Positions 27,156 to 33,100 of a DNA stretch of 64,000 nucleotides are shown here, one piece after another. The stretch's first letter is position 1; every line of letters starts with the position of its first letter. The notes beneath the pieces are model-generated. The model was given only the letters and a program-made list of their open reading frames with translations. It had not been told where the DNA came from and made no database searches. Source of the stretch: Owenia fusiformis (taxonomy: Eukaryota > Annelida > Polychaeta > Sabellida > Oweniidae); the NCBI GenBank assembly GCA_903813345.2, contig CAIIXF020000001.1:6947098-7011097 (forward strand). The letters are read 5' to 3'. Position numbers and translations under genes: made by a program.

Positions 27156-30100
27156 ATGGCTGAAGAAAAGTCTTTAGAAAATGTTGACCAGGTATTTGCA
27201 TCATTCTGTCATGATATTCTGATTGAAAACACTGCCAATCAAGCTAAGACCAATGTAAACATAATTTGAATAAATGAAGTCTTGCATAAGTATGGTTTAT
27301 GTTGTAGAAATCACTTACATTTCATTATTGTAAATATTTGTGGTTTAGATCTAGATTACTTCCGGGTTCTGGAAAAAATGTTTGGAAGTACTTTGAATTT
27401 AAAAGATAAGCAAACAAATGACTATATTGCAACATCATATAAAAAATAAAAACATGTACAAGTCCTAACTTTTGTATATTTCAGATAGTTATGTATAATG
27501 TGCGGGTTTGTAGAAAAAACCGGGAACCGGGTACCGGGGTAAATCCTCCATGCTGGGTTCAAAATTGGTTCATGTTTGATACCTTCTTATAGTTCAATGT
27601 TGATTATATTGCTAATGCATATTGATATATGGAGGCACTCATATTATTTTGGATACAGTGGGGATCATAAAGAATTGCAAAAGCTATGAAAATTACATGC
27701 TGTCGCACATGTAATAAATTCTTACCTCAGTGTATTCAGTGCTCTATTTTCTCCGTCGTAGTAAGTCCAAATATAGTGGAATTTGTGTCCCTAATGACAA
27801 ATAAGAACTTCAAAAGTTGAAGTGGATATTCACATGTTATGCCGACTATTCAAATATTGAGGTGATTTCGTCGCCCGATTGTGCCGGAAAGGAGGATTGG
27901 CTCCCAGAATGCAACATGACACGTGCCAGCTTTCAAAATGCTGTTCCGCCATTTTGAAACCTGTCATGAGTAAATACGGTTAACTGATGTTGCATGCTGG
28001 GAGTCAACCGTCCTTGGATAACAAACATGGCGATTCATGAAAACATTCATTCGATTTGGTAGGGATTTATCCATTATTTGCAGGTATGAAGCTTTGGATT
28101 CATTTATTGTGCTACTTTAGTGAACGGGAATTATTTTTCTACCGCTTGGGAGAGTTTGAGACACGAAACTTGGAAATTAGCTCATTGTGACAACTTGTGA
28201 ACGTTGAGTTTTATTTTTGTCCCCCACTGTATGTTAACTTTTATTCTTTATTTTAGAATGCCAACTTAGTTGGAAGAAAGTCTGACCTTATTGGAGTAAA
28301 GCGACAGATCAAGATAGATGGAAGAAATATTTTATTTGTTCACAAAAAGGGGAAATTCTTTGCTTTAGATAGTAAATGTTACCGTAAGTATAACAGTTAG
28401 AAAAAATATGATAATCAATTTGTTTTCTTTTCTCACTTGTTTATTAGTTTTTAAAGATAGAAAAAGCATCGCAAAATAAACATGATCAATCATGAAATCA
28501 GGTTTGCCAGTGCCTGGTTGAAGCAGCATGGTATAGATATCACATTTAGTATGTAGTATGTTGTTTGGGTTATATTACCTTAGACTCAGAGAAGACATAT
28601 GTCTATAATGTAAATGTGTATTAAGACATCATCGCTGATTAGTCAAATTGACAGAAAAATGATGTCACTCAATGGCCGTTTCAAAATTTTCCAAAAACAT
28701 TGAATTTATAATTATGTTAATTTCTGGTATGTTCACCAATATCATAGCTTATTATTTCACATCATTATAAAGAAAGACGTTAGGAATGTGCTAAAATCAA
28801 ATAAACATCACAACGACATGTGATATTCGTATGAAAATTCGGACAATGAAGTTGGTAAGCAAGAGACAGGATTTAATCTGTCATCTCTAAAGGTTTAGGG
28901 TTTGGCCATACATGTATCTAAAAAGTTGATTAGACTGCCATCTTCCAATTAACAGTTTTTTTATGCCTATGTTATACCATAATCACAAAAACTCATTCAT
29001 TTACCATTCCCTTGTGGGAGCAAAATAATATTTGATGAGAAAAGATATGTTCTCTCAAGAAAACGAAACATGTAGTCTCTCAAGAGTGGTAATGACAGGC
29101 CTGTCAACCTGGGAACACCTTCATTCTTGTAATCTAATATAATTTTTCTATTTAATGTGTTTTATTACACTATTCCAGACAGTGGTGGTCCTCTCCACAA
29201 AGGTGACATAGAGGTAAGTTTTCTGCAAAATTTGATATGTGTGCTTAAAGATTTACTCTGCAATCTCTCAAGAATTGGTGAAACTGAGTGATGAACTGAT
29301 TTGAAATCGGGAATAAAAGATGCATACATACATAATGTTTGCAAGCTGTCAAAAATATGAAAAACATTGAGATGTTTTGATCAAATCAGATGAAATTAGA
29401 ATTCAACTCTCAGATTAGGATTTAAATTTCAGATCAAATATTCAACCCATGTATCAGATTTCCTCAAGTAAAATACACTTTTATCTTTAAGTGGCTTAGA
29501 TGTCATATAGAAATGGAATCTATGTAACGTAGACCCACCAATACAATATGTTGAATTCATGCTGGAGTTAATTCTTAATTTCGAATATTCTAATTTTAAA
29601 TACAAGAGGGACAAAGTTTATTTATTTATTTATGGTGATTCAAGCTCCTTAAGCTCCCTTCATAATTCCGAGAAAAATGTGAAAATGTGTAGGTCTCTCT
29701 GCCACCACCTCACTTCTCATTTATTTCTCTATCAGAAAAGTAACAATTTTTTTTTCAGGATGTTCCAAACTTTAGTAGCTGTATTGTTTGTCCTTGGCAC
29801 AGATACAAGATTTGTCTGCAAACTGGGGAGAGCGTATATCAGGTGAGTTGACTATAACAAATGTATTGTCTGACTATCAGGTGAGTTGACTATAACAGAT
29901 GTATTGTCTGACTATCAGGTGAGTTGACTATAACAGATGTATTGTCTGACTATCAGGTGAGTTGACTATAACAGATGTATTGTCTGACTATCAGGTGAGT
30001 TGACTATAACAGATGTATTGTCTGACTGTATCAGGTGAGTTGACTATAACAGATGTATTGTCTGACTATCAGGTGAGTTGACTATAACAGCTGTATTGTC

Positions 30101-33100
30101 TAACTGTATCAGATGAGTTGACTACAACAGATGTATTGTCTGACTATCAGGTGAGTTGACTATAACAGATGTATTGTCTGACTATCAGGTGAGTTGACTA
30201 TAACAGATGTATTGTCTGACTATCAGGTGAGTTGACTATAACAGATGTATTGTCTGACTATCAGGTGAGTTGACTATAACAGATGTATTGTCTGACTATC
30301 AGGTGAGTTGACTACAACAGATGTATTGTCTGACTATCAGGTGAGTTGACTATAACAGATGTATTGTCTGACTATCAGGTGAGTTGACTATAACATAAGT
30401 ATTGTCTGACTCTATCAGGTGAGTTGACTATAACAGATGTATTGTCTGACTATCAGGTGAGTTGACTATAACAGATGTATTGTCTGACTATCAGGTGAGT
30501 TGACTATAACAGATGTATTGTCTGACTGTATCAGGTGAGTTGACTATAACAGATGTATTGTCTGACTTACCAGGTGAGTTGAGTATTACAGATGTATTGT
30601 CTGACTGTATCAGATGAGTTGACTATAACAGATGTATTGTCTGACTATCAGGTGCAGTGATCTCCCCAGGATTTTTCCATAGCAGGGGGGGATTTTTTAA
30701 CAAGTTTCGCCGCTCGCTTCGCTCGCATGATTTTTGTGCCAATTTTTGCCGCTCGCTTCGCTCGCTATATAAACACCAATTCTCATTTAGAAAACCTTTT
30801 ATTTAACAATACATGATAATATGCTTGTAGTGTCATGAGTATTCATTGTTCATTGTGTTTCCTTAAAGTCTTCTGTCCCTACATCTTCTGGGGTGCATGT
30901 CAAACCACCTCCCCCATGCTGCCTCAAAATCGAACACCTCTTCCCTTGGTCCATTTATGATAATGTTGAGGACCCTGTCCACTGTTTCTACTTTCATTCT
31001 ATTCTTTAGATAAGTCTTTTTAATTTTACCCATTTTTTTTGAGTTTCCCGCATAAAGAACCGGAAGTCGAACTTCTTTATCATGACAACCATCAAAAGCA
31101 AGATTTGAACATTAATTCGTTCGCAATTATAATAACTATTAATAAAAAATAATACTTTATTGTCAAATTGTAGTTTTAGTCGTTTTTATGTTTGTTTTAT
31201 TCCAAATTGGCGATTTTGATGATCGGTGATCATATCACTCCGCGTTGCAGTATAGGGGTAATCTGCGCCAGGTTCAACTGTTAACTTTTTCTAATTTTCT
31301 GAACGCACGCATCAAATGAACGATTTTGATAGGTTAGAATGTTTTGGGCGCATGCGCATACGTAGTCAAATCAAGTGATCGAATCGAACCGAACCTGGGG
31401 CAGATTATGTCGATGACACACGATTAGTAATAGATAATTTGATTGGATATTTCGTAACTAATCATGAGTTTTGAGCCAATCAGAAGACATTTAAGATTCG
31501 GCCTTCGGAATGGCAAATCGGGAAAAACTTTTTGAAAATTTTTTGAATTTTATGTGATTTCGTCGAATATCCAGGAGAATAAAATAATGTACGTAAGTTT
31601 TGAAGTAGAGGGGCGCTAAGCAGGGTGGGCGAAGCAAGCAGGGGGGGAACAGGGCGGGGAAAACGAGTGAGCAGGGGGGAGCGCCATGCAATTAGATTCT
31701 GGGGAGAACCCAGAGGTGAGTTGACTATTACAGATGTGTTGTCTGACTACATATCAGGTGAGTTGACTATAACATAAGTATTGTCTGACTCTATCAGGTG
31801 AGTTGACTATAACAGATGTATTCTCTGACTCTATCAGGTGAGTTGACTATTACAGATGTATTGTCTGACTGTATCAGGTGAGTTGACTATAACATATGTA
31901 TTCTCTGACTCTATCAGGTGAGTTGACTATAACAGATGTATTGTCTGACTGTATCAGGTGAGTTGACTATTACAGATGTGTTGTCTGACTACATATCAGG
32001 TGAGTTGACTATAACATAAGTATTGTCTGACTCTATCAGGTGAGTTGACTATAACAGATGTATTCTCTGACTCTATCAGGTGAGTTGACTATTACAGATG
32101 TATTGTCTGACTCTATCAGGTGAGTTGACTATAACAGATGTATTCTCTGACTCTATCAGGTGAGTTGACTATAACAGATGTATTGTCTGACTGTATCAGG
32201 TGAGTTGACTATAACAGATGGATTGTCTGTATCAGGTGATAACCATATTGTTGCCTATATCAGATGAGTTGACTACAACAGTTGTATTGCCTCTCTGTAT
32301 CAGGTGAGTTGATTGCAACGCCTGTTTTGTCTGTCTTAGTATGGTGAGTTAATTATAACAGCTGTGTAGTCTGTCTATATCAGTTGGGTTGACCACATCA
32401 GGTGTTTTGTCTGTCTCTGTCAGTGTCGTGTGAGTTGATTATAACAGCTGTATAGTCTGTCTATATCAGTTGAGTTGACAACATCAGGTGTTTTGTCTGT
32501 CTCTGTCAATGTCATGTGAGTTGATTATAACAGCTGTGTAGTCTGTCTATATCAGTTGGGTTGACCACATCAGGTGTTTTGTCTGTCTCTGTCAGTGTCG
32601 TGTGAGTTGATTATAACAGCTATATAGTCTGTCTATATCAGTTGGGTTGACCACATCAGGTGTTTTGTCTGTTTCTGTCAGTGTCATGTGAGTTGATTAT
32701 AACAGCTGTATAGTCTATCTATAATCAGGCAAGTCAACTTCCAGAGCATTATTGTCTGTATTTATCAGGTGTGTTGACTTCACATCGGATAAGTTGACTT
32801 CAACTACTGTAATGCCTGTCTTTATTGGTTGAGTACTGTCTGTCCAGGCTGAAGGCTACGTAAGATTCTATCTATATGTTACAAATGTATCACTCTTATT
32901 CACACTATTCATAAGGTAGCTGACTTTATTCACTGAAGCCATTGACTAACCTATTAATGATATCATGTAGCAACAGATTTCACTAAGCCCATGCAGTAAA
33001 ACACTCCAATAACCATTGAAAGCAAAATCATTGCAGCTGAAGCTATTTTTCTGAGTGTGACTACTTTAGAGACACGATTGAACATTCATTAGCGATAAAA

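Follow-up and report, generated by a model that had tools for sequence, protein, structure and literature searches.

A donor-bearing minisatellite at the exon 4 border of an RFESD-type gene of Owenia fusiformis

Described donor minisatellites and dual-specific splice sites

The human IFI6 gene (6-16) contains a minisatellite, reportedly treated by Turri in 1995, whose unit is 12 bp long. This minisatellite supplies multiple splice donors, and downstream units are used (PMC4526556). In human ABCA7, a 25-bp VNTR in intron 18 starts at the donor of exon 18 (De Roeck 2018, PMC5954066). According to the portions of that paper on which we draw, retention of one unit causes a frameshift, a premature stop and decay; the frameshift isoforms amount to 14 and 2%, with the retained-unit form at about 2%, and cycloheximide increased the forms with a premature stop. 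Where ABCA7 arrays were longer, expression was lower and exon 19 was skipped more often, while unit retention and nonsense-mediated decay were unchanged. A different kind of repeat is described for UBC, in which tandem dual-specific AG/GT sites (here and below the slash marks the splice border) occur one per repeat unit (Duan 2024, PMC10809524). Ratchet points and other recursive sites are, in the accounts consulted, single and conserved and lie mostly in very long fly introns (PMC8605326, PMC6110457), and intron gain by tandem AGGT duplication has been described, including that of a 24-bp fission yeast repeat (PMC4974935). Other analogues are the intron repeats of earthworm metallothionein (PMC12783039) and repeats in human duplicated genes (PMC2812944).

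In this work we have analysed a minisatellite in a 64-kb window, that is, the whole stretch of 64,000 nucleotides studied, from the annelid Owenia fusiformis. As in ABCA7, the array starts at an exon donor, brings one donor with a unit whose length is not a multiple of three, and would give a premature stop if a unit were retained. The ABCA7 array is described as starting at the GT of a 25-bp unit, and the text consulted mentions no exon bases in it, whereas the unit here measures 38-40 bp and includes six exon bases; and the exon skipped in ABCA7 in a length-dependent manner is the next one, which at our locus holds the stop codon. Similarly to IFI6, a minisatellite supplies multiple donors, although the use of inner donors has been observed in IFI6 and is only predicted here, and the IFI6 units give rise to protein isoforms whereas an inner donor here would truncate the protein. 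With UBC the array shares a tandem row of AG/GT sites, one per unit, each a possible donor or acceptor; however, the UBC units are coding, 228 nt long and in frame, while those described here are intronic and out of frame, with a length of 38-40 nt, and the array does not include the real acceptor. The juxtaposition of acceptor and donor at AG/GT, with the donor rebuilt, recalls the ratchet points, although the candidate sites here form a repeated row in a 3.3-kb intron. As in tandem AGGT duplication, copies of an AG/GT segment create or extend an intron, but in that process a new intron comes from coding sequence, whereas at our locus the intron was already there and seems to have expanded from its border. 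Since ABCA7 and IFI6 already show the arrangement, its kind is known and this array is a further example. What appears to set it apart is that its unit includes exon bases, that every intact unit after the first contains a dual site, and that inverted copies are present.

The gene and the array in its fourth intron

The host gene, on the + strand, is of the RFESD type and encodes a small iron-sulphur protein, a soluble Rieske protein. The joined protein matched the Pfam domain Rieske_4 with its CxH and CxxH ligands present (PF22543, 1.5e-35), and a query that was slightly misjoined found human RFESD (PDB 3d89) at 1.4e-30. A candidate exon 1 (27156-27191; 12 residues, ending CAG/GTATTT) was placed by eye, and its phase fits exon 2. 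Exon 2 (28257-28383, with borders TTTTAG/ and /GTAAGT) and exon 3 (29179-29213), which together encode the first Rieske ligand pair, were located by tblastn, as were exon 4 (29759-29842, 84 nt) and the coding part of exon 5 (33144-33347, ending at a TAG stop). For exon 4 the alignment with human RFESD 3d89 was used as well: its protein end is TGESVYQ and its DNA end TATATCAG, and the final Val-Tyr-Gln aligns with a Leu-Tyr-Gln of the human protein, Tyr-Gln being common to both. The last bases of exon 4, up to 29842, are GTATATCAG; intron 4, of 3301 nt (29843-33143), starts with GTGAGTTGAC, and the acceptor of exon 5, TATTTTCAG, lies outside the array. Motifs of the polyA-signal type occur past the stop at 34020 (ATTAAA) and 34915 (AATAAA). 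Within the 64-kb window tblastn found no second copy of the gene that could provide a single-donor comparison (next best E 2.2), no relatives of the locus were confirmed among viral contigs, and an Rfam scan of 26000-36000 returned nothing reaching the gathering threshold.

Elsewhere in the window there are three other long minisatellites (1920-2951, 8384-8699 and 13905-14858) and a dispersed repeat present as an inverted pair (27980-28171 and 44907-45100; 92% identical over 194 nt). An open frame at 45889-46968 codes for C2H2 zinc fingers and contains a 42-bp coding tandem repeat (46040-46150), a reverse-transcriptase zinc-binding match lies at 18950-19543 (6.6e-07), and an ion channel exon at 63251-63628 (Ion_trans_2, 1.2e-12).

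Intron 4 opens with the 38-40 bp minisatellite, whose unit 1 starts on the last six bases of exon 4. TRF reported a 38-bp array (29837-30654, 94% matches), a stretch with period 40 (31714-32229) and, at 32248-32779, a degenerate continuation. These results bear out the initial annotation, made from the sequence by eye, in that the array is headed by the real exon 4 donor and that its repeat begins with six exon bases. On the + strand we distinguish a first block (29837-30654), with 21 full units of 38-40 bp, a cut 22nd unit and 19 intact CAG/GTGAGT donors; a second block (31714-32239), with 13 units, mostly of 40 bp, a six-unit (242-bp) higher-order repeat and 12 intact donors; and a decayed part (32240-32840), with 11 units at E <=0.01, partly arranged as an 86-bp dimer repeat, and one intact donor (32301). 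The array had previously been ended at 32235, but the decayed units carry it on to about 32840 (or about 32820), a limit that rests on two weaker matches (E 0.22 and 1). The whole description comes from one haplotype.

The + strand of the window contains 32 copies of the 9-mer CAGGTGAGT, every one of them inside the array (19 in 29840-30579, 12 in 31755-32205 and one at 32301), and the minus strand contains a single copy (33436-33444), within an inverted tract that is considered below; in dinucleotide shuffles the mean number of copies was 0.30 and the maximum 2, both strands included. The counts of 19 donors before the insert and about 13 after it, given in the initial annotation, were right (19, and 12 plus one), but its statement that every unit is a full donor does not hold: in the first block, two of the 21 units carry CAGATGAGT rather than an intact donor, and the first unit past the inserted element carries AGAGGTGAGT. 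Intact donors are found in 31 of the 34 units of the two young blocks and in 1 of the 11 distal units. A profile of the unit gave 48 matches at E <=0.01 in the window (21, 13 and 11 on the + strand and 3 on the minus strand), all of them in intron 4 or beside exon 5; weaker matches, at chance level, fell outside this set.

The two young blocks are separated by an inserted element of about 1059 bp (30655-31713, + strand), which has imperfect terminal inverted repeats and is flanked on both sides by AGGTG. Its inverted ends are CAGTGATCTCCCCAG-like, with 12-nt arms that agree at 92% (12 of 15 bases to the very ends by eye), and two copies of GCCGCTCGCTTCGCTCGC lie near its 5' end. From these features the insert resembles a non-autonomous DNA transposon, one that would have entered the array in the middle of a unit. 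The search for further copies of it within the window gave short matches only (best 29-32 nt).

The inverted tract (33345-33447, minus strand) consists of three degenerate units, with profile matches at 33346-33446, and its beginning coincides with the exon 5 stop codon. It is predicted to pair with the array RNA: the modelled duplex of two units with the tract has an energy of -63.0 kcal/mol, while 300 mononucleotide shuffles gave a mean of -27.3 and a lowest value of -47.3 kcal/mol. This predicted pairing is kept here as an observation only. Scored against each of the three blocks, the tract gives similar values (48, 45 and 44), so no block is singled out as its source, and simple tandem growth leaves it unexplained.

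Origin and growth of the repeat

As the initial annotation had proposed, we favour an origin of the repeat by templating from the exon-intron border. The six-base overlap is, on its own, weak evidence for this. The argument is carried by matches that are short, at most 8 nt in the older units, and by the Tyr-Gln that the border shares with human RFESD, and it favours a repeat copied from the exon 4 border. The border motif recurs at 38 sites farther downstream, of which five match the exon end over 8 nt (all of them distal), two over 7 nt, 30 over 6 nt and one over 3 nt; the 8-nt match is found in five of the six distal units of the TATCAG type, and 31 of the 32 younger units match over 6-7 nt, the remaining one over 3 nt. 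Since one 86-bp dimer family accounts for four of these five 8-nt matches, the number of independent cases is perhaps two. The other possibility that we have considered is a dispersed repeat of independent origin that spread in both orientations in the surroundings of exon 5 and met the exon border by chance, its exon bases being a coincidence. Such a repeat would account for the inverted units at 33345-33447, outside intron 4, and TAT precedes 38 of the 1408 CAGs (2.7%) located outside the array and the inverted tract. However, only 1 of these 1408 CAGs is preceded by TATAT, the border codons encode residues shared with human RFESD, and the 48 unit matches at E <=0.01 in the window are confined to intron 4 and the vicinity of exon 5, so we hold this origin to be very improbable.

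Moving outward from the exon, identity to the consensus is 98.5% (786/798 columns), 96.5% (472/489) and 80.4% (329/409) in the three parts of the array, a gradient of the kind expected if units multiply close to the exon and decay at a distance from it. Higher-order repeats of 384, 242 and 86 bp point to separate amplification rounds. We also looked at the donor columns of the units. Over all + strand units pooled, they are less variable than the other columns (odds ratio 0.54, p=0.02, for units that are non-independent, being mutual copies), which could mean selection. In the distal units the donor GT is lost in 5 of 11, and differences occur in 14 of 97 cells of the donor columns versus 66 of 312 cells elsewhere, which is not significant (p=0.19). 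Thus, nothing there shows selection for many donors, and as far as these comparisons go the array gives no firm sign of it.

Donor choice and the outcome of inner donors

In modelled pairing with U1, the array donors reach -12.2 kcal/mol, versus -7.6 for the donor of exon 2 and -10.7 for that of exon 3. Since the array donors are 32 copies of the same 9-mer and pair equally with U1, strength cannot pick the first of them; exon length and order must do so. We also considered that the donors might be hidden by local RNA structure, an idea that was dropped since exon 4 together with the first six units folds more weakly than shuffles do (z +2.54; 100/100 shuffles fold at least as well). For donors 2-6, those tested, the protein ends GESVYQVS-stop, and the TGA previously placed three codons past the first border is right for them; as later donors keep the first unit, the same VYQVS stop would be expected beyond donor 6. 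The distance from this stop to the junction is 29, 67, 105, 143 and 183 nt for donors 2-6. By the usual 50-nt rule for the stop-to-junction distance in nonsense-mediated decay, the unit 2 form might escape decay and the later forms would not. The truncated protein would keep the cluster ligands and lose everything that exon 5 encodes.

We propose that the minisatellite arose at the border of exon 4 and intron 4 by tandem duplication, whereby every unit would have received the donor together with the final 6-8 bases of the exon, and that the array is mostly a tolerated by-product. Most transcripts would join the first, exon-proximal donor of exon 4 to the ordinary acceptor of exon 5. A minor share would use the donor of unit 2, 3 and so on, keep at least one unit and end at the VYQVS stop, and those extended forms in which the stop is far enough from the junction would be removed by decay. 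The later units would be redundant and free to decay away from the exon. We consider this account, taken as a whole, to be reasonably probable. ABCA7 offers a measured precedent both for a low usage of unit 2 and for the decay of the resulting form. That the first site is strongly favoured was one of the two alternatives of the initial annotation, and it is also the one that we prefer, with only position favouring the first of the equal donors.

The other alternative was that array length tunes the output of the gene through nonsense-mediated decay, more units leading to more use of inner donors and more decay. The equal donors and the unavoidable stop are what such a dampener would need, and in ABCA7 longer arrays do have lower expression (PMC5954066). 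The distal donors of our array, however, have been freely lost, and in the ABCA7 work, as far as its text was available to us, the retained-unit isoform was unchanged by length and nonsense-mediated decay was unaffected (PMC5954066), which makes tuning by decay unlikely here; we regard it as quite improbable. One part of the idea keeps some ground by analogy: since expression is lower, and the next exon more often skipped, where ABCA7 arrays are longer, donor arrays need not be neutral, and length can matter by another route.

A further reading concerns a property that had been overlooked earlier, namely that each intact unit after the first is an AG/GT dual site, a candidate weakish acceptor as well as a donor. 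All 31 + strand dual sites of the window with a donor score of at least 10 and an acceptor score of at least 4 lie in the array; with thresholds of 8 and 4 the array holds 32 of 35, so that three + strand sites are found outside it. These splice scores are rough, and the matrices behind them were not trained on this taxon. Each CAG of the 38-nt unit has a branch-like TATAAC 23 nt upstream. If donor 1 is joined to a later site, the same exon border is rebuilt (31/31), and the extended mRNA keeps an AG at the exon 5 junction (31/31), both largely by construction, so stepwise or repeated splicing would be possible. Each later intact unit might then be a complete donor-branch-acceptor module of a self-erasing intron, removed stepwise from donor 1 to a unit CAG, with the border rebuilt each time, until exon 5 is reached, and extended forms could be respliced to the correct mRNA. 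Expansion would be buffered at the RNA level at any length, and surviving extended forms could fold onto the inverted tract if this lies in the 3' UTR. In favour of such splicing, donor-acceptor synergy and tandem dual-specific arrays have been published for UBC (PMC10809524), and human recursive splicing is described as occurring in small to medium introns (PMC10156609). On the other hand, the unit acceptors score 4.9-8.3, below the 8.4-11.6 obtained for four acceptors of the gene itself (the border of exon 4 scores -2.8), one AG intervenes between the branch-like site and the CAG, and dual sites outside the array appear once the donor threshold is lowered. We consider it unlikely that the intron is removed in this way. 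In a literature search of limited extent, recursion along such an array matched only the UBC paper.

What could such an array mean? With the tolerated by-product as our preferred reading, the locus offers a natural test of the choice among about 30 identical donors, in which strength is constant and position alone varies. If splicing from unit to unit were true, it would explain how a gene survives the growth of a repeat at its exon border, and it would join the donor minisatellites of ABCA7 and IFI6 with the dual-specific arrays of UBC. The ABCA7 case indicates that such arrays can matter for disease (PMC5954066).
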